A stretch of DNA of 64,000 nt from Ilumatobacteraceae bacterium. Its GTDB lineage: Bacteria > Actinomycetota > Acidimicrobiia > Acidimicrobiales > Ilumatobacteraceae. The notes under the pieces were generated by a model that was not told the origin of the DNA, did not search any database, and worked only from the letters and a program-made list of their open reading frames with translations. Position numbers and translations under genes: made by a program. Of the stretch, positions 45,141-54,326 are shown one piece after another (the stretch's first letter is position 1; every line of letters starts with the position of its first letter). Where the stretch lies: contig JAJTEL010000001.1 in NCBI GenBank assembly GCA_021299715.1, forward strand, positions 395,171 to 459,170, given 5' to 3'.

Positions 45141-45568
45141 TGACTGACGACGCGGAAGCATTTCGCCAGTACGACCCACGGACCGACGCTCGTGAGCAAG
45201 CAGTCATGCTTCTCTATGAATCAGAACAACGTTCGGTCTCGCCACTTGACCTAATGGTTGAACGTGGAGTGGCGTCAGAAGACATGGCTCGTGCACTCCT
45301 CGAAGGTGTTGAAGCGTCTCGTGCGCATATTGACTCAGAAATTGTCACTCATGCTCGCGGATGGGCACTCGATCGCATGCCTGCACTCGATCGAGCCATT
45401 CTTCGACTCGCAATCCATGAGCTTCTCGATCGACCCGATGTGCCTGTCGCAGTCGTCATTGATGAAGCGGTCGAGCTTGCTAAACGCTTTTCCACCGATG
45501 ATTCGGGTCGGTTCGTGAACGGTGTGCTTGCGGCGGTGGCCAAAACATCCCGTCCTTCTGCGGAATGA
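45140..45568 (+). CDS. nusB: transcription antitermination factor NusB
   Basis: A 142-aa all-helical protein that binds boxA of rRNA operons with NusE. REQAVMLLYESEQR at the start and WALDRMPALDRAILRLAIHELL, VVIDEAVELAKRFSTDDSGRFVNGVLAAV are the family core. One-base overlap with efp. Ends the block that in mycobacteria also ends at nusB. Confidence 0.92.
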   Translation: MTDDAEAFRQYDPRTDAREQAVMLLYESEQRSVSPLDLMVERGVASEDMARALLEGVEASRAHIDSEIVTHARGWALDRMPALDRAILRLAIHELLDRPDVPVAVVIDEAVELAKRFSTDDSGRFVNGVLAAVAKTSRPSAE

Positions 45569-45575
45569 TGGTGCC

Positions 45576-47033
45576 GTGGATTCCACGGTTGACTTTGTTC
45601 GCTCCTGTCGGGACTCGTTACGCCGGGTTTCGCCTTGGACCTGGGTGGTTTTTGCCGTGTGTTGCGCGCATGCATTCTGGATGTCGTGGCTGCAGGTAAA
45701 TCTTCATCGTGGTTTAGGAACATTTGCCTATGACGTTGGCTTGTACGACCAAGGAGTCTGGTTGTTGTCACGTGGGCAGGCTCCGTTTGTCACGCTGATG
45801 GGTCGAAACCTTTTTGGCGACCACGCATCACTCATTCTGGTTTTTCTGGTGCCGTTGTATTGGATTATTCCTGGCACGGCGACTCTGTTGGTTGTCCAGG
45901 CAGTCGCCATTGCAGGCGGTGCGATTCCTTTGTATCTCTTCGCCCGCCGAGTTCTACAGAGTGAACCATTGGGAGTGTGTGCGGCGTTTTTATGGCTTGC
46001 TAATCCCGCTGTAAACGGAACGGGAATGGAGAACTTCCATCCGGATTCATTTCTCGGTCTCTTCTTGCCGCTGGCGCTCTACGCGCTGTACGAACGGAAG
46101 TGGCGTCTGTACGCCGTCGCAGTCTTCTTGTGTTTGCTGGTGAAAGAAGATGTCGTTCTTGTCATGGTTCCTCTTGGAATTTTTGTTGCATTTCGATTTG
46201 ATCGCAGAAAGGGGCTGTGGACGGCGTTTGCTTCGCTGTTTGCCACTTTCGTGGGCATGTTCCTTCTCATGAAATCTCTAATTGGGGTTCCCACTAGAAA
46301 CACATGGCGAATTCCCTTCGGTGGTTTGTGGGGGTTTCTTCACGAACTCGTCACGAACCCACGTGCAGTTGCTCAATACCTGGTGTCGGAAGATCGAGCC
46401 CTCTACATGTTCCAAATGGCAGCACCGTTTGCTGCTGTCTTTGCATTGTCTCCATGGTTGACACTGGTCGCAGTCCCGGTCATTGCATCGAACGTTGTGA
46501 GTACGTTCTGGTATCAGCACAGCATTCAGTACCACTACTCATTGGTGGCGGTGCCAATTCTGGTGTGCGCCACAGTTTTTGGTGTGAAGGCTGTGGTGGC
46601 GAAATGGCGCGGGTTCGTGATGGCTGGCGTTGTTGTCACTACTGCGGTCACATTCATTGCGTGGGGTCAACACCCACTAGCTATCACTCCACGTTCGGTT
46701 CTTTCGTCCGACGCTGCTGTGGCTGTCGCGGCACGACAAATTGTGAAAGAGGTTCCCCAAGATGCGGTGGTCTCTGCTTATGACCCCCTTGTTACGTATT
46801 TGGCGCATCGCAAAGAGATCTACTTCTTCCCAAACCCGTTCCGGGCGGTGTACTACGGCGTGGGAACAGAAGTGGAGGGAACCAGACTCCCAGCAGCAGA
46901 CCGTGTGGAATATGTGGTGCTCCCTCGCATTTTGAACGAAACGCTCCGATGGGACTGGGCCGAGGTCAGCGCGGACTTCGAGGAAGTCTCAGGAAACCAG
47001 TACTGGCAGATTTTTCGCCGAAAACAGCGTTAG
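45576..47033 (+). CDS. DUF2079 polytopic membrane protein
   Basis: A 485-aa integral membrane protein with about ten helices. The N-terminal AYDVGLYDQGVWLLSRGQAPF and GRNLFGDHASLILVFLVPLYW are the DUF2079 hallmark, a family with GT-C glycosyltransferase-like architecture (acidic residues in the first extracytoplasmic loop). HPDSFLGLFLPLALYALYERKW and VKEDVVLVM follow. A role in polyprenyl-linked sugar transfer is possible but unproven. GTG 45576 is the first plausible start after nusB. It lies at the joint between the nusB and pyr blocks. Confidence 0.8.
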   Translation: MDSTVDFVRSCRDSLRRVSPWTWVVFAVCCAHAFWMSWLQVNLHRGLGTFAYDVGLYDQGVWLLSRGQAPFVTLMGRNLFGDHASLILVFLVPLYWIIPGTATLLVVQAVAIAGGAIPLYLFARRVLQSEPLGVCAAFLWLANPAVNGTGMENFHPDSFLGLFLPLALYALYERKWRLYAVAVFLCLLVKEDVVLVMVPLGIFVAFRFDRRKGLWTAFASLFATFVGMFLLMKSLIGVPTRNTWRIPFGGLWGFLHELVTNPRAVAQYLVSEDRALYMFQMAAPFAAVFALSPWLTLVAVPVIASNVVSTFWYQHSIQYHYSLVAVPILVCATVFGVKAVVAKWRGFVMAGVVVTTAVTFIAWGQHPLAITPRSVLSSDAAVAVAARQIVKEVPQDAVVSAYDPLVTYLAHRKEIYFFPNPFRAVYYGVGTEVEGTRLPAADRVEYVVLPRILNETLRWDWAEVSADFEEVSGNQYWQIFRRKQR

Positions 47034-47053: not shown

Positions 47054-47059
47054 TAGAGT
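47054..47059 (+). promoter_or_regulatory. possible -10 element of the pyr operon
   Basis: TAGAGT, with TTAGCA (47030-47035) 18 bases upstream as a weak -35. Transcription would then begin near 47066, right at the foot of the PyrR hairpin. Confidence 0.4.
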
Positions 47060-47067
47060 TGACCTGA

Positions 47068-47098
47068 CCGTAAAACGAGTCCTGTGAGGCTCGAACGG
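47068..47098 (+). promoter_or_regulatory. PyrR-binding RNA hairpin (pyr leader)
   Basis: The lower stem CCGT/ACGG (47068-47071, 47095-47098) and the upper stem CGAG/CTCG (47076-47079, 47090-47093) are separated by a purine bulge (AAAA opposite A), with the loop TCCTGTGAGG. The AGTCCNGNGAGGCT core and the bulge are those of known PyrR-binding loops. UMP-bound PyrR should bind here and lower expression of the operon. Confidence 0.85.
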
Positions 47099-47107
47099 AA
47101 GGAAAAC

Positions 47108-47191
47108 ATGAATCTACGAATTCCCACACACGCACGCCCCTTACACGGGGCGTTTTTCATGCCCACACACATTTTCATCGCTTGCCGGTGA
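47108..47191 (+). CDS. pyr operon leader peptide, 27 aa
   Basis: A short ORF starting ATG 47108 behind a strong ribosome site GGAAGGA (47097-47103) that touches the 3' strand of the PyrR hairpin. It encodes a basic, His/Pro-containing peptide ([20 protein letters not shown]...) and stops at TGA 47189-47191, overlapping the pyrR GTG by four bases. Codons 9-17 cover an intrinsic terminator. Translation is inferred from the ribosome site, the ATG and the stop/start overlap; the peptide itself looks unremarkable. Confidence 0.55.
47134..47157 (+). terminator. intrinsic terminator (attenuator) in the pyr leader
   Basis: ACGCCCC (47134-47140), loop TTACAC, GGGGCGT (47147-47153), then TTTT. A perfect 7-bp stem with a U-tract, located between the PyrR hairpin and pyrR and wholly inside the leader ORF. 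Confidence 0.75.
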
Positions 47192-47724
47192 GCGCTGTGA
47201 CAACCACTGCGGTTGACATTCTTGGCGCCGACGACGTGTCGCGCGCCATCACCCGCATTTCTCACGAGATTGTTGAGCGAAATCCGGCTCTTGATTCGGT
47301 GGTCATTGTCGGAATGCAGACTGGCGGTACGTGGATTGCAAAGCGCTTGTGTGAGTCGGTGAACAAAATTGTTGAAGGTGCCAATGTGCCCTTGGGCGCT
47401 ATCGATATCTCGCTCTACCGCGATGACTACAGCTTGCGACCTGTCGTGCTGTCTGCACCCACCGACATTCCTGTCGATCTCACAGGCCGCACCGTTGTCC
47501 TTGTCGATGACGTCCTTTTTACTGGCCGCACTGTACGTGCTGCTTTAGAAGCCCTGAACGATTACGGACGTCCTCGTGCGGTTCAACTGGCTGTCATGGT
47601 GGACCGCGGTCACCGTGAACTGCCCATTCGTCCTGACTACGTGGGCAAGAACATCCCTACGCACTTCAGTGACGAGGTGGCGGTAGGTCCCAATGGCGTC
47701 ACGGTTTCGGCGGTGGCGACGTGA
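47188..47724 (+). CDS. pyrR: pyr operon regulator / uracil phosphoribosyltransferase PyrR
   Basis: A 178-aa PRTase-fold RNA-binding regulator of pyrimidine synthesis. [31 protein letters not shown] and the PRPP loop [21 protein letters not shown] are diagnostic. GTG 47188 is chosen as it overlaps the leader ORF stop (GTGA), which suggests translational coupling; TTG 47182 is in frame but lacks support. It should bind the hairpin upstream in its own transcript. Overlaps pyrB by GTGA. Confidence 0.93.
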
Positions 47725-48671
47725 AGCATCTTCTCGACACTCACGACCTGTCCATAGACGACATTGTCAACATTCTCGACGTGGCGGACCGAATGGCCGA
47801 AGTAAATCGTCGTCAAGTTCCGAAGGTCCCCGCACTGAAGGGGAAAACCATCGCCACTGTGTTTTTTGAAGATTCCACACGAACTCGTCTGAGTTTTGAA
47901 ACTGCAGCTCGTCGTTTGTCTGCAGATGTGCTCACATTTCTCGCGTCTAGTTCAAGCGTGAACAAAGGCGAGAGCCTGCGTGACACCATTGAAACGTTGT
48001 CAGCCATGGGTGTCCAAGCCTTTGTCGTTCGGCACAAGTCCAGTGGAGTTCCATTACAACTTTCTCAGTGGACCGACGCATCTGTCATTAATGCTGGCGA
48101 TGGGTGGCATCAGCATCCAACGCAAGGTCTCTTAGACGCCTACACCATCACTCGTGAATTCGGAACTCCAACGTCGCTTGCTGGTCGCACAGTTGCCATT
48201 GTTGGTGACATTAAACATTCGCGCGTTGCGCGCAGCAACATAGACCTTTTCACTCGGTTGGGTGCACGAGTTGTCCTTGTAGCCCCACCATCACTGTTGC
48301 CATCACATGTAGAGACGTGGCCAGTAGACGTTCGCTCAACCATGGACGATGTCATCGACAATGTCGACGTGGTCTATCTGCTTCGCATGCAATTAGAGCG
48401 TATGCAGTCGGCATCTATTCCCAACTTGGCGGAGTACACGCGCTTGTATGCGTTAACCCCAGAACGCGCTGCTGTTTTGCAAGATCATGCGTTGCTGATG
48501 CATCCAGGGCCAATGAACAGGGGAGTTGAAATTACGGTCGATCCCGCCGATGTAGCCGGCTCTCGCATTCTTCAGCAAGTAACAAACGGAGTGTCCATAC
48601 GTATGGCGGTGTTGTTTACCTTGCTAGGCGGCGACAGTGTGTCCAGTTTGACTGCAGGTGGGGAAGCATGA
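47721..48671 (+). CDS. pyrB: aspartate carbamoyltransferase, catalytic subunit
   Basis: A 316-aa transcarbamoylase condensing carbamoyl phosphate and aspartate. The phosphate site [33 protein letters not shown] and [13 protein letters not shown] are all present. There is no pyrI regulatory subunit nearby. GTG start in the pyrR stop; ATGA overlap into pyrC, so carbamoyl-aspartate synthesis and ring closure are coupled in expression. Confidence 0.96.
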
Positions 48672-49948
48672 GCCAGTCACTTCTTCTTCAGAATGTCACG
48701 GTGGTCAATCCCGATGCGGTGTTCGTTTCCGATGTGCTTATTCAGAACGGCCGTGTCTCTGCAATAGGGAACGGGCTCACTGGCGACATCGTTGTGAATG
48801 GCTCTGGGCTCTACGCATCGTCAGGGTTTGTCGATTTGCACACTCATCTTCGCGAACCCGGCAAGGAAGAAGCAGAGACCATTGAAAGTGGTAGTCGTGC
48901 CGCAGCATTGGGTGGGTATACCGCTGTTGTCGCAATGCCCAATACGGACCCAGCGCAAGACAATGTTGCGACAGTTGCATTTGTTCGGGAACAAGGCATC
49001 AAGGCCGGACTCTGTGAGGTGCTTCCTTCTGGATGTATCACGGTGGGTCGCCTGGGCGAATCGCTCGCACCGTTCGATCAATTGGCAAAAGTGGGTGTCA
49101 CTCTCTGCACCGATGATGGCAACGGAGTGCAAAGCGAATCTCTGATGCAGCAGGCGCTAGTTGCTGCCAAAAAACTAAATATCACCATGGCCCAACATTG
49201 CGAAGTCTCAGAGATGACCATTGGTGCTGCCATGCACGACGGCGAATGTTGCTCACATCTTGGAGTTCCCGGATGGCCAGCAGAAGCAGAAGTGCAGATG
49301 GTACTTCGAGACATCGAACTTGTTCGTCGCACCGGCGGTCGCTTGCATCTCTTGCACCTCTCCACTGCTGAGAGCGTGGCTCTCGTTCGCGATGCAAAGA
49401 AGGAGGGGCTGCCGATCACTGCCGAAGTCACTCCTCACCATCTGTCATTACAAGACACTTTGCTAAAGAGTTTCAATCCCATCTTTAAGGTGAACCCGCC
49501 GTTGCGCACACCGCGCGACATTGAAGCGCTGAAGGAAGGACTTGCAGACGGCACAATCGATGCAGTCGCTACCGATCACGCACCACACGCCGGGCACACA
49601 AAAGAACAACCACTCGATGTGGCGCCACCAGGCATGTTGGGACTTGAAACCGCACTAGCGGTGGTCAACACCGCAGTCACACTCGACGTTCAAAAACTTG
49701 CTGCACTGATGTCATGGAACCCTGCGCGTATTGCTCGCCTTGAATCCCATCAAGGGCGGCCTCTCGCAGTGGGGGAACCCGCAAACATCGCAGTGTGGGA
49801 CACCACATCGGTGTGGACCGTGCAAAAAGATGCACTTGCGAGCAAAAGCAAGAACACTCCGTATCACGGAATGGCCGTACGTGGCCGCGTGCACCACACC
49901 ATTTTCAACGGAGAACTCGTCGTACATGAAGGAAAGGCACTGAAGTGA
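48668..49948 (+). CDS. pyrC: dihydroorotase, class I
   Basis: A 426-aa amidohydrolase closing carbamoyl-aspartate to dihydroorotate. The zinc motif is in FVDLHTHLREPGKEEAETIESG; the catalytic Asp in VATDHAPHAGHTKEQP. Histidines in MAQHCEVSE and HLLHLSTAES complete the site. It ends with the usual RGRVHHTIFNGELV beta sandwich. It overlaps carA by GTGA. Confidence 0.95.
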   Translation: MSQSLLLQNVTVVNPDAVFVSDVLIQNGRVSAIGNGLTGDIVVNGSGLYASSGFVDLHTHLREPGKEEAETIESGSRAAALGGYTAVVAMPNTDPAQDNVATVAFVREQGIKAGLCEVLPSGCITVGRLGESLAPFDQLAKVGVTLCTDDGNGVQSESLMQQALVAAKKLNITMAQHCEVSEMTIGAAMHDGECCSHLGVPGWPAEAEVQMVLRDIELVRRTGGRLHLLHLSTAESVALVRDAKKEGLPITAEVTPHHLSLQDTLLKSFNPIFKVNPPLRTPRDIEALKEGLADGTIDAVATDHAPHAGHTKEQPLDVAPPGMLGLETALAVVNTAVTLDVQKLAALMSWNPARIARLESHQGRPLAVGEPANIAVWDTTSVWTVQKDALASKSKNTPYHGMAVRGRVHHTIFNGELVVHEGKALK

Positions 49949-51033
49949 CCAACTCGCTTACCTCAATCGCACTCGTCTTAGAAGATGGTTCCGTCTTTGA
50001 AGGCGAGGCAATCGGACACATTCCTTCAAACGGAATCGCCGCCGGAGAAGTGGTGTTCAACACCACGCTGACTGGGTACCAGGAAGTTATTTCCGACCCG
50101 TCGTATGCAGGTCAAATCATCACCTTCACTACGTCGCACATTGGTAACTATGGCGCTACATCTGCAGACGCTGAATCACGTGGCACGTTTGCGCGAGGAG
50201 TCATCGTGCGCGACATGGCGCGACGTCGAAGCAACTGGCGAAGCGAAGAAGACCTAGACACCATGTTGAAGTCTCACAACTTGCCGGGAATTGCTGGTCT
50301 CGACACTCGCCGTCTCACACGCCTTCTTCGCGACTCGGGGTCACTTCGTGGTGCATTTGGCACGGCGAGCGAAAAAGAACTTCATGCCGCGGCTCAAGCC
50401 GAAACTGGAACATCGGGCATCGACCTTGTTGCTCAGGTCACGACTCCACAGTCCTATACGTACGGAGATGGGAAGTTCTCTGTGGTTGCATACGACTTTG
50501 GTATCAAGACCACCATCTTGCGATGCTTGTCAGAAATTGCTCGTGTCACAGTTGTTCCCGCGGGAACCTCTGCTGAAGAAGTCCTCGCGTTGTCTCCCGA
50601 CGGAGTCTTTTTGTCGAATGGTCCTGGAGACCCTGAAATGGTGAGTGGCGCAACGCAGAACATTCGCGCCATCGTGGAAGCTGGTACTGCCACGTTTGGA
50701 ATTTGTCTCGGTCATCAACTTTTGTCGCGTGCATTCGACGGGCACACATTCAAGCTTCCGTTTGGTCACCACGGCGGCAATCACCCTGTTCGAAACTTGG
50801 CGACCGGCGCGGTGGAAATCACCAGCCAGAACCACAACTTCTGTGTCGATCCCGATTCGCTCGCCGCAGTTGCTGACATCACACACATCAACTTGAACGA
50901 CAACACGAACGAAGGAATGCGCTTGAAGAAGCATCGAGCGTTTTCTGTTCAGTATCACCCTGAAGCAGGTCCTGGGCCGCACGACAGCCGCTACCTCTTC
51001 GCCCAATTCGCAGAACTGATGGAGGGCAAGTAA
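49945..51033 (+). CDS. carA: carbamoyl-phosphate synthase, small (glutaminase) subunit
   Basis: A 362-aa subunit that frees ammonia from glutamine. N-terminal [36 protein letters not shown]; class I amidotransferase triad Cys in [14 protein letters not shown] and His/Glu in [17 protein letters not shown] start; its TAA shares one base with the carB ATG. Confidence 0.96.
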
Positions 51034-54000
51034 TGCCACGCCGTAACGACATTCATAACATTCTCATCATCGGGTCTGGCCCAATTGTGATTGGCCAAGC
51101 GTGCGAGTTCGACTACTCCGGAACACAAGCGTGTCGAGTATTGAAGTCGGAGGGATATCGCGTTGTGCTTGCCAACTCGAACCCGGCCACCATCATGACC
51201 GACCCTGACTTCGCGGACCGCACGTACATCGAGCCGCTCACACCAGAGATACTGGCCAAGATCATTGAACGTGAAAAACCCGATGCAGTGTTGCCAACAT
51301 TGGGCGGACAAACAGGTCTGAACCTTGCCATGGCGCTCTACGAGCAAGGACTAGTTGGTGTTCCAGGAACTCCAGAACTTATTGGCGCTAACGCAGAAGC
51401 AATTGCCACTGCAGAAGACCGTGACAAGTTCAAGCAAGCCATGATTGAAATAGGGCTCGATGTGCCGCGTAGTGGCATAGCGCACAACATGGACGAAGCA
51501 ACAGCAGTGTTGGAAGAGATTGGGTTGCCGGTCATTATTCGCCCTGCGTACATCTTGGGTGGTCGCGGTACCGGAATTGCCAACACCATGGAAGAGTTCT
51601 TGAAGGTGGCACACGATGGTCTAGATGCAAGCCCTATCCGTGAAATTTTGATTGAGACTTCCATCGTTGGATGGAAGGAGTACGAACTTGAAGTGATGCG
51701 CGACAAGGCAGACAACTGCGTCATTATCTGCAGCATTGAGAACTTCGACCCAATGGGCGTTCACACGGGTGACTCCATCACGGTTGCACCCGCACAAACA
51801 TTGTCCGATGTTGAATATCAGCGCATGCGCGACGCAGCCCTTGCGTGCATCCGCCGAGTAGGTGTTGAGACCGGCGGTTCAAATGTTCAGTTCGCACTGA
51901 ATCCCGCAAATGGCGACATGGTTGTCATTGAAATGAATCCTCGTGTATCGCGCTCATCGGCGTTGGCCTCAAAGGCAACAGGTTTCCCCATTGCCAAAAT
52001 TGCTGCCAAGTTGGCTGTGGGTTACACGCTCGACGAAATTCCCAACGACATCACACGTATGACGCCGGCGAGTTTTGAACCAACAATCGACTATGTCGTC
52101 ACCAAGATTCCACGATGGGCATTCGAAAAACTGCCAGGAACATCGGGAGTTCTGGGAACACAAATGCAAAGCGTTGGTGAGGCCATGGCCATTGGCAGAA
52201 CTTTCCCCGAAAGTTTGCAGAAGGGTCTGCGCTCACTTGAGCAAGGCCGTCTCGGCTTGAACTGCGACCCGGGCGAATCCCTCTATGACCCATTGAGCGA
52301 CGAAGCGTTGTTGGCGAAAGCTGCTGTAGCTACTCCCGAGCGAATCTTCCAGGTAGGTGAAGCGTTGCGTCGAGGCATGGGCGTTGACCGCGTGCATGAT
52401 GCAACAAAGATCGACCCATGGTTCCTCGACCAAATGCAGATCATCATTGATGAACGTGAAGCAATGGAAGGAAGCACAATCACCTCGCTCACTCGAGCAC
52501 AGATGCGTCGTGCAAAGCGCCTCGGATTCTCCGATGCACAACTTGCATACCTCTTGAAGAGTGATGAACTGTCTGTACGTGCGCACCGAGAAGATCTAGG
52601 TGTCATTCCTACATACAAGACCGTCGACACATGTAGTGCAGAGTTTGCGGCGCAAACTCCGTATCACTACTCAACCTATGAAGACGAGAACGAAGTGCGA
52701 CCATCAGATCGTCCACGCGTCATCATCTTGGGTTCGGGTCCGAACAGAATCGGTCAAGGAATTGAATTTGACTATTGCTGTGTACATTCCAGCTTCGCTT
52801 TGCGAGATGCAGGCTTCGAGACAGTCATGGTGAACTGCAACCCTGAAACGGTGTCCACCGACTACGACACGTCCGATCGTTTGTACTTCGAGCCTCTTAC
52901 TCGAGAGGATGTGCTGAATGTCATTGCTGCGGAAACCTTGGCTGCAGGGGGAGTGCCACCGAAAGTCATTGTGAGTCTTGGTGGTCAGACACCGCTAAAA
53001 CTGTCTGGCCTTATTGACCCTGCTCTCATTGCTGGTACATCTCCACATTCCATCGATCTCGCAGAAGACCGCGAGAAGTGGAATCAACTGTGTGAGAGTT
53101 TGTCCATCCCTCAGCCTCCAGGTGGAACCGCTGTGACACTGGACGAAGCCCGCACTATTGCACAGCAGGTGGGATTCCCCGTGTTGGTTCGTCCTAGTTA
53201 CGTATTGGGCGGCCGAGCAATGCAAATTGTCCACGACATGGGTGCGCTCGAACGCGCCATGGAACAACTTGCTGCCGATGGAAGTTTGGGCAAAGAAGGC
53301 GGACTCTCGGCTGAGCGACCTGTTCTCATCGACCGTTTCCTCGCCGACGCTACGGAAGTAGATGTGGATGCAATTCGAGATCACACCGGCGAAGTTCTCA
53401 TTGGCGGCGTGATGGAGCACGTGGAGGAAGCAGGAGTTCACTCCGGAGACTCAGCGTGTGCCATTCCGCCACAAACACTTCCTGCATGGGTAGTTGAAGT
53501 TATTAGCGAGTACACATCATCAATTGCACACGCTCTTGATGTGCGCGGGCTTATCAATGTGCAGTTTGCGGTGCTCGGTACAACGGTGTATGTCATTGAA
53601 GCCAACCCGCGTGCATCACGCACAGTGCCGTTTGTTGCAAAAGCCACCGGTGTGCCACTAGCAAAAGTGGCCAGCCGTGTCATGTTGGGTGCAACCCTCA
53701 ATGAACTACGCACTGAAGGACTTCTCACGCCGCCAGTAACAGGCGGACATGTGTCTGTGAAGGAAGCCGTCTTGCCTTTCAGTCGATTCCCCGAAGTCGA
53801 TACAGCGCTGGGACCAGAAATGCGTTCCACGGGTGAAGTCATGGGAATCGACAGAACGTTTGGTCGAGCGTTTGTGAAATCACAAACTGCTGCCGGAACA
53901 GTTCTTCCCACATCGGGAATGGTGTTCTTGTCGCTGAACGATGGAGATAAGCCGGCAGGATTGGTGGTGGCCAAACGACTACGTGCATTAGGTCTTGGCA

Positions 54001-54326
54001 TCGCAGCCACCACTGGTACAGCTGAGTATCTGGCCAAATTCGGATTACCTGTCGACCGAGTGGTGGGCAAGTTGTCAGAGATGGCGGGAACAAGTATGGA
54101 CAATGCAGTCGATCTTGTCGCTCAAGGAGAAATCAGTTTTGTGGTGAATACACCGCATGGTCGTGGTTCCCGTGAAGATGGAGAAGCAATTCGTAAAGCC
54201 GCGAACTCCAATCGCGTCTCATCTGTGACCACTGTCGAAGCAGCACTCGCAGCAGTGAACGGTTTGTGGGAACAACGCGAGTCAGAAATTGAAGTGTGCT
54301 CGTTGCAGGAGTATCACGGACGATGA
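51033..54326 (+). CDS. carB: carbamoyl-phosphate synthase, large subunit
   Basis: A 1097-aa synthetase with two ATP-grasp halves. [30 protein letters not shown] opens the carboxyphosphate half; [23 protein letters not shown] (from about residue 567) opens the carbamoyl-phosphate half; [22 protein letters not shown] and [22 protein letters not shown] are the paired metal/ATP motifs. The last about 140 residues are the MGS-like allosteric domain. Full length. It feeds both pyrimidine and arginine synthesis. Confidence 0.97.

Follow-up and report, generated by a model that had tools for sequence, protein, structure and literature searches.

PyrR-binding hairpins lie 5′ of pyr genes and are recognised by a UCCNGNGAGGC core, an upper stem, a purine bulge and a lower stem. 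For Mycobacterium smegmatis, Fields and Switzer are said to have found in 2007 that PyrR represses translation and that the leader has no terminator. For the Thermus strain ZO5, Van de Casteele et al. reportedly proposed in 1997 that PyrR attenuation works with no antiterminator and that a translating ribosome keeps the terminator from forming. In Bacillus subtilis, as described in a passage of PMC4347634, PyrR stabilises an anti-antiterminator. In Escherichia coli pyrBI, according to PMC5021804, the leader ORF pyrL holds an intrinsic terminator that is suppressed as ribosomes advance. The abstract of PMC4833913 is about leader genes near structural genes in Actinobacteria and others and discusses reinitiation.

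The stretch of DNA analysed here, called the window throughout, comprises 64,000 nucleotides (positions 395171-459170 of its contig) from the 1.9 Mb genome, 92.8% complete, of a freshwater actinobacterium. It carries a pyrR-pyrB-pyrC-carA-carB operon with overlapping gene ends (Table 1), whose PyrR scores 212.2 bits with the PyrR family NF003549 (cut-off 138). The initial annotation had described in front of pyrR a PyrR hairpin with a purine bulge, a ribosome site sharing bases with the 3′ strand of this hairpin, a 27-codon ORF whose stop overlaps the GTG of pyrR, and a U-tailed terminator inside this ORF. All of these are present exactly where it had placed them, and the hairpin with its bulge can be read directly in the sequence.

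Table 1. Elements of the pyr leader and neighbouring genes in the window
Feature	Position	Strand	Remarks
nusB and DUF2079 membrane-protein gene	5′ of the pyr operon		DUF2079 gene lies between nusB and pyrR
DUF2079 membrane-protein gene	45522-47033		Ends about 20 nt 5′ of the -10-like element
-10-like element TAGAGT	47054-47059	+	Just 5′ of the PyrR hairpin
PyrR hairpin	47068-47098	+	CCGT-AAAA-CGAG-UCCUGUGAGG-CUCG-A-ACGG; lower stem CCGU/ACGG, bulge AAAA/A (purine bulge AAAA 47072-47075), upper stem CGAG/CUCG, loop UCCUGUGAGG
SD of the leader ORF, GGAAGGA	47097-47103	+	GG 47097-47098 common to the 3′ strand of the hairpin (2 nt)
Leader ORF	47108-47191	+	ATG at 47108, 27 codons, passes through the terminator; TGA 47189-47191 overlaps pyrR GTG 47188-47190 (GTGA)
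Intrinsic terminator	47134-47157	+	ACGCCCC-UUACAC-GGGGCGU and U run, inside the leader ORF; stem 47134-47153, T run 47153-47157; -13.4 kcal/mol
pyrR	47188-47724	+	GTG start overlaps the leader stop; alternative in-frame start TTG at 47182
pyrB, aspartate carbamoyltransferase	47721-48671	+	Start overlaps the pyrR stop
pyrC-like dihydroorotase (amidohydrolase)	48668-49948	+
carA	49945-51033	+
carB	51033-54326	+	Name from reading frame and place in the operon

As in M. smegmatis, the first ribosome site of the operon adjoins the PyrR hairpin, and in the window the two overlap. The leader of the window does have a terminator, which begins 26 nt into the leader frame; the M. smegmatis leader is reported to lack one. 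The likeness to Thermus ZO5, which belongs to another phylum, is that a ribosome would stand in the place of the antiterminator; a terminator within pyrR, the stop–start overlap, a terminator read in two frames and codon evidence across an order, all seen here, are not known to have been described for Thermus. With the attenuator of B. subtilis, as far as the passage cited above describes it, the locus shares the hairpin type, the protein family and, as a sequence signal, an intrinsic terminator before the first pyr gene, pyrR, but here the gap between hairpin and terminator is short, an SD and an ORF lie between them, and an antiterminator is not favoured in most leaders. An intrinsic terminator inside the leader frame (translated in pyrL) is also found in E. 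coli pyrBI. That system has no PyrR; in the window, regulation would act on the ribosome site itself.

Transcription probably starts at the hairpin or just 5′ of it. A TANNNT element ending 8-16 nt 5′ of the hairpin was found in 139 of the 190 leaders from the family and the order, with peaks at distances of 8 nt (58 leaders) and 10 nt (54), where the average position has 5.4. The hairpin of the window is the single exact match of GTCCNGNGAGGCYC in the whole genome. For the SD of the leader ORF a pairing energy of -6.3 kcal/mol was calculated (10th and 50th percentiles of the background -7.9 and -3.7); pyrR itself has no SD, with a value of +1.3 kcal/mol. A Pfam scan of the leader peptide gave no match. 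When the full-length RNA is folded, the PyrR hairpin and the terminator form jointly (z -2.0; equalled by 5 of 200 shuffles). Terminator-like sites between 44000 and 56000 number 17, close to what shuffled sequence yields (mean 12.1, sd 3.5), and the leader terminator ranks first among them with the most G–C pairs (6 of 7).

The Rfam family RF00515 (PyrR) aligns with 47064-47160 at 32.1 bits, short of its gathering score of 54, and the Rfam scan of the window returned no family at gathering score. Judged by motif and stem, independently of the Rfam model, the window does contain a PyrR-binding hairpin. Since the gathering score of RF00515 was reached by just one (L234) of 20 leader loci scanned, the window among them, the PyrR sites of Actinomycetota are probably under-annotated.

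Spread of the hairpin and of the leader ORF

Of the 200 family genomes searched for the comparison, 187 had a match to the PyrR query, a few of them a weak one, and 111 family leaders were read (110 loci from the matching genomes and L200). A PyrR above the family cut-off was present in 140 of 148 genomes from the order, in 106 of 120 from the class and in 144 of 149 from the phylum; for three other classes the numbers are 29 of 31, 34 of 36 and 23 of 27. We read 89 of 147 loci from the order and those with the best-scoring PyrR from the class (30 of 118) and the phylum (30 of 149); the three other classes gave 25, 21 and 19 usable loci. Eight loci without an acceptable PyrR match (L286, L327-L333) were left out, as were 13 of 325 loci without a recognised hairpin, one of them (L011) cut by a contig end, and three below the score limit. 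Doubtful low-scoring hairpins, e.g., L071 (genus g16, on a cut contig) and L158, were kept among the remaining 309. The clusters and genera counted are coded groups and partly related lineages.

These 309 hairpin boxes comprise 197 distinct cores, in 172 to 196 of which the six stem pairs are formed, with compensatory types of pairs. An SD motif is situated at -5 to +20 nt from the end of the hairpin in 281 of the 309 leaders, all forms taken together.

Terminators were searched with a folding-based finder, which replaced a simple finder that missed bulged hairpins, and the main counts were obtained with strict settings. Loose settings were discarded: 134 of 945 shuffles were positive, and false matches appeared at six loci of genus g4 (tails TTGTTCG or TTGTTGG). 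Even so they point in the same direction as the frame counts given below, with 70 of 87 leaders spanning and 45 of 87 overlapping (other frames 2 and 5). With the strict settings a terminator lies 3′ of the hairpin in 154 of 309 leaders compared with 14 of 927 dinucleotide shuffles. The positive leaders (28 of 106 in the family, 51 of 85 in the order, 9 of 29 in the class and 66 of 89 elsewhere) are spread over 108 of the 191 genera and 68 of the 93 families sampled. The hairpin without a strict terminator is seen in every group sampled.

The genus of the window, g1, is uniform. In 19 of its 20 loci read the hairpin is followed by an SD and by an ORF of 25-27 codons which runs through the terminator and whose stop overlaps the start of pyrR (as GTGA, ATGA, TGATG or TAGTG); the twentieth, L011, lacks its 5′ part. 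The terminator stems of two members, L031 and L032, have quite different sequences. Both leaders of genus g3 show the same arrangement with 31 codons and a terminator that is built differently. The alignment of related genomes proposed along with the initial annotation thus bears out the co-conservation of hairpin, SD, ORF and terminator in the genus. The idea that leader translation is the switch gains from this and from the tie between stop and start, and it loses from the wider family, where a strict terminator was detected in five of the 25 genera sampled (g1, g3, g12, g22 and g24) and was absent from the other 20, one of which, g16, is known from a cut contig. Most leaders of this family (78 of 106) have the hairpin and no strict terminator, and by this comparison the terminator is dispensable within the family of the window.

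The median pairing energies in g1 are -6.3 kcal/mol at the leader start and -3.9 kcal/mol at the pyrR start (background median -3.7). SD-like pairing of -4 kcal/mol or better at the pyrR start occurs in 8 of 19 g1 leaders and in 20 of 28 of the wider phylum; together with the moderate SD of the leader ORF this means that coupling would not necessarily be obligatory.

In the strict set 69 terminators lie in the pyrR frame behind its start codon and 85 are separate, at a median of 30 nt from the hairpin (35 nt in the window). Between hairpin and terminator 78 of these 85 leaders have a start codon and seven have none. The first frame spans the terminator in 64 of the 78 (14 do not span), where 48.5 ± 3.5 are expected from shuffles, and the 78 first frames include 42 whose stop overlaps a pyrR start and 59 whose stop is no more than 15 nt away from one. 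For the other two frames the corresponding numbers are 24 and 53 spanning, 2 and 4 overlapping, and 6 and 16 within 15 nt. Counted per genus (48 genera) the first frame spans in 35.5 (25.8 ± 2.9 expected to be open), overlaps in 19.3 (other frames 1.5 and 3.5) and ends within 15 nt in 32.2. The first frame spans in all 20 family and all five class members; among the 53 leaders from the remaining phylum it spans in 39 (26.7 expected) and its stop overlaps in 17. The arrangement with a separate ORF is therefore firm in our sample of the window's class and more mixed elsewhere in the phylum.

These numbers bear on the possibility that the association is due to chance, i.e., that the terminator belongs to the upstream DUF2079 gene and that the ORF is accidental. 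Short frames are indeed commonly open, as the expectation of 48.5 in 78 shows, and the upstream gene ends just 100 nt earlier. The -10-like element and the hairpin, however, stand between this gene and the terminator, the stop–start overlap is concentrated in a single frame, and in other families the terminator lies in pyrR. We regard this explanation as extremely improbable.

On a FastTree phylogeny of 174 PyrR proteins the three leader states change at least 35 times, compared with 77-80 times in three shuffles. The count, which does not separate gain from loss, indicates that the leader forms swap often.

In seven leaders read by eye, L026, L070 and L096 (g12, g24) and L024, L065, L068 and L078 (g22), the ATG nearest to the SD opens an out-of-frame ORF of 8-9 codons. 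In the first three the stop of this short ORF abuts the terminator, and the pyrR frame, which starts at an overlapping GTG or ATG, continues through the terminator; in L024 the terminator is no longer present. With such a two-start arrangement a terminating ribosome might sit at the foot of the terminator.

Terminators within pyrR and the choice of codons

Terminators of the other order members lie within the coding sequence of pyrR. A TPPxGGVF-like motif is present at the N-terminus of PyrR in 64 of 89 order loci, and its codons mostly are the terminator (ACGCCCCC....GGGGGCGTTTTY). The valine of this motif is encoded by GTT in 47 of 58 cases, compared with 5% of the 636 valines in the remainder of pyrR, and its first glycine by GGG in 45 of 59 compared with 27% in the remainder. 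For GTT the binomial p is 2e-49, a value that treats related sequences as independent and is indicative only. Valines in the neighbourhood (from 16 codons before to 25 after the motif, the two beside Phe excluded) are GTT in 8 of 189 cases, and the valine directly after the Phe is GTT in 36 of 50. Third positions are A/T-rich in the first codons behind the start (five positions with G+C 0.34-0.55) and G+C-rich from there to the motif. Because of this G+C-rich stretch and the low use of GTT nearby, a bias general to the start of genes fails to account for the U tract. In some lineages the peptide is kept and the U tract is not (GTC in 8 and GTG in 3 of the 58). In L179-L181 ACC..GGG replaces ACG..GGC, both sides of the stem being changed at synonymous sites. 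The U tract is weakened to GTCTTC in two of these three loci, and their terminators are perhaps decaying.

An alignment of 15 leaders showed that the terminators of g1 and of the rest of the order align as DNA. The same sequence is read as HARPxxGAFF in the separate ORF of g1 and as TPPxGGVF in pyrR elsewhere; the terminator that the initial annotation had seen inside an ORF thus stays inside an open frame even where this frame is a different one. As far as the alignment goes, the RNA signal and the open frame are kept and the peptide is not, which favours translation as such over a functional peptide. The distance from start codon to terminator is similar in both forms (median 21 nt in separate, 24 nt in fused leaders). 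Along with the anatomy of the leader, its conservation and the tie between ORF stop and pyrR, selection on the terminator at the level of codons is evident from the sequences compared.

The codon data also bear on a translational repression of the mycobacterial type alone, in which PyrR hides the first ribosome site and the hairpin with its U tract is a leftover or a constitutive brake. The prevalence of terminator-free leaders in the family, and their presence in all groups, agrees with this explanation. It does not account for a U tract kept by codon choice against the usage nearby, for a terminator conserved across a change of reading frame, or for the many genera and families with strict terminators, and a strong terminator ahead of the whole operon would need some relief. 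We consider repression alone unlikely.

The question of an RNA antiterminator

In an attenuator of the Bacillus type an RNA antiterminator would compete with the PyrR hairpin and the leader ORF would be incidental. We therefore looked at the unfinished RNA which ends before the 3′ arm of the terminator. In the best fold of the window RNA the hairpin is present and the arm unpaired, a result that is not clear-cut, the probability of the stem being 0.49. The median probability of the outer stem of the hairpin in unfinished RNA is 0.57 in g1, 0.70 in the order and 0.64 in separate leaders of the phylum, compared with a median hairpin-stem probability of 0.02 in three Bacillota controls. The competing structure is weaker than in shuffles in g1 (medians 0.35 vs 0.89 kcal/mol; 1 of 18 leaders at p<=0.05) and in the order (0.22 vs 1.11; 1 of 51), and it is stronger in the Bacillota controls (2.5 vs 0.92; 1 of 3), a comparison bounded by the small control set and by the limits of the energy model.

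These values come from a test that uses the outer stem of the hairpin only. An earlier version was discarded since it forced a register of the loop-proximal stem which differs from the best fold; its absolute values were too low (g1 1.33 vs 1.81, order 1.54 vs 2.23, none of three controls at p<=0.05). Pairing of the 5′ arm of the terminator with upstream sequence proved uninformative, since a C-rich arm finds partners in many G-rich stretches and the values for controls were similar.

An antiterminator of the Bacillus type is in keeping with the RF00515 alignment, which covers both hairpins, and with a number of unfinished leaders which do fold in this way (L007, L012, L031, both g3 leaders, L235 and L306). 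The competing fold disrupts the hairpin of the unfinished RNA in L007, L009, L012, L031 and the two g3 leaders, and in L007 and L012 the probability of the hairpin stem is near 0. Against it stand the best fold of the window, the weakness of the competing structure in g1 and the order, and the stop–start overlap, which would go unexplained. We take this explanation to be quite improbable; replacing the first test by the outer-stem test lowered our estimate for it slightly and raised that for repression alone by still less.

In the unfinished leaders of L235 and L306, from another class, AAGGATGGTAA pairs with TTACCTACCTT in what may be a Bacillus-like antiterminator. An ORF that ends near pyrR lies next to it, and both mechanisms may coexist in this class.

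The proposed ribosome-dependent attenuator and its timing

We infer binding by PyrR, blocking of the SD, termination and its relief by the ribosome, and we consider it probable that the leader of the window is a PyrR attenuator in which a translating ribosome replaces the antiterminator. The terminator lies inside a conserved frame that starts upstream of it, as is expected at the sequence level for an attenuator which depends on ribosomes. At low UMP ribosomes would load at GGAAGGA and cross the terminator sequence before or while it folds; their passage would let the polymerase continue, and pyrR would be reached by start–stop coupling. At high UMP PyrR-UMP would hold the hairpin and cover the SD, no ribosome would enter, the terminator would form and transcription of pyrR-pyrB-pyrC-carA-carB would end near 47157; in transcripts that escape pyrR would stay untranslated. 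The relatives with the terminator in the 5′ end of pyrR itself would follow the same logic, and in this form, seen in Acidimicrobiales, the short RNA would end after GGGGGCGUUUU. In simpler relatives, which have the hairpin and the SD only, control would act on translation alone.

The joining of attenuation and translational control envisaged by the initial annotation is not new as a concept, given the proposal reported for Thermus in 1997. Among the papers listed by a literature search that left out most subscription journals, none had a title or abstract on a translated PyrR leader in Actinomycetota, which is weak evidence that no such paper exists. As a hypothesis, the ribosome-gated interpretation is the best supported one, with unusually good comparative evidence, and it is not wholly new in concept. 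The reinitiation discussed in the abstract of PMC4833913 mentioned above fits the overlap of stop and start.

The main difficulty is one of timing. A passage of the review PMC7858274 cites work in which terminators lying within the first 100 nt of an ORF were about 100% efficient, and it also mentions pausing of the polymerase in this part of ORFs. If early termination is as nearly complete as this passage has it, the ribosome may arrive too late at 26 nt unless the polymerase pauses. The organism of the termination work cited in that review is presumably E. coli. One of three things would have to hold: a pause of the polymerase, a difference in these bacteria, or a relief of termination by something other than the ribosome.

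A pause of the polymerase would resolve this objection, and it is central to a control of the E. coli pyrBI type, in which the nucleotide level acts via pausing and via the spacing between ribosome and polymerase, PyrR being secondary. As in pyrL, the terminator is within the leader ORF. The hairpin is found by the SD with or without a terminator, however, and PyrR is therefore the constant element; moreover we saw by eye no conserved U-rich run in the g1 leaders. We judge a control of this type very improbable.

Ribosome gating may also apply more widely. It is possible, though we lean somewhat against it, that the old PyrR control in much of Actinomycetota is a ribosome-gated attenuator with a terminator about 20-35 nt into the first frame, often in pyrR. 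PyrR would decide on the loading of the first ribosome, and the terminator would read this decision within a few dozen bases of polymerase travel. If this is true, a newly loaded ribosome can beat an intrinsic terminator at a distance from the start codon much shorter than the termination data in the literature would permit, and the terminator persists while the reading frame and the peptide change. The leaders compared do show an intrinsic terminator conserved within protein-coding sequence via synonymous codons. For the model reportedly proposed for Thermus they offer a natural experiment, since all have the same hairpin where the first ribosome binds, whereas the terminator is in a separate ORF, in pyrR or absent. 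They raise the question how early after initiation a ribosome can prevent termination; the data in the passage of PMC7858274 say not so early.

The C-rich arm of the terminator encodes prolines, RP in the window and PP in many relatives. A passage of PMC5021804 describes that, in the absence of EF-P, a stall at polyproline leads to more termination at a terminator located downstream, and by analogy a dependence of the proline-coding terminators on EF-P is conceivable.
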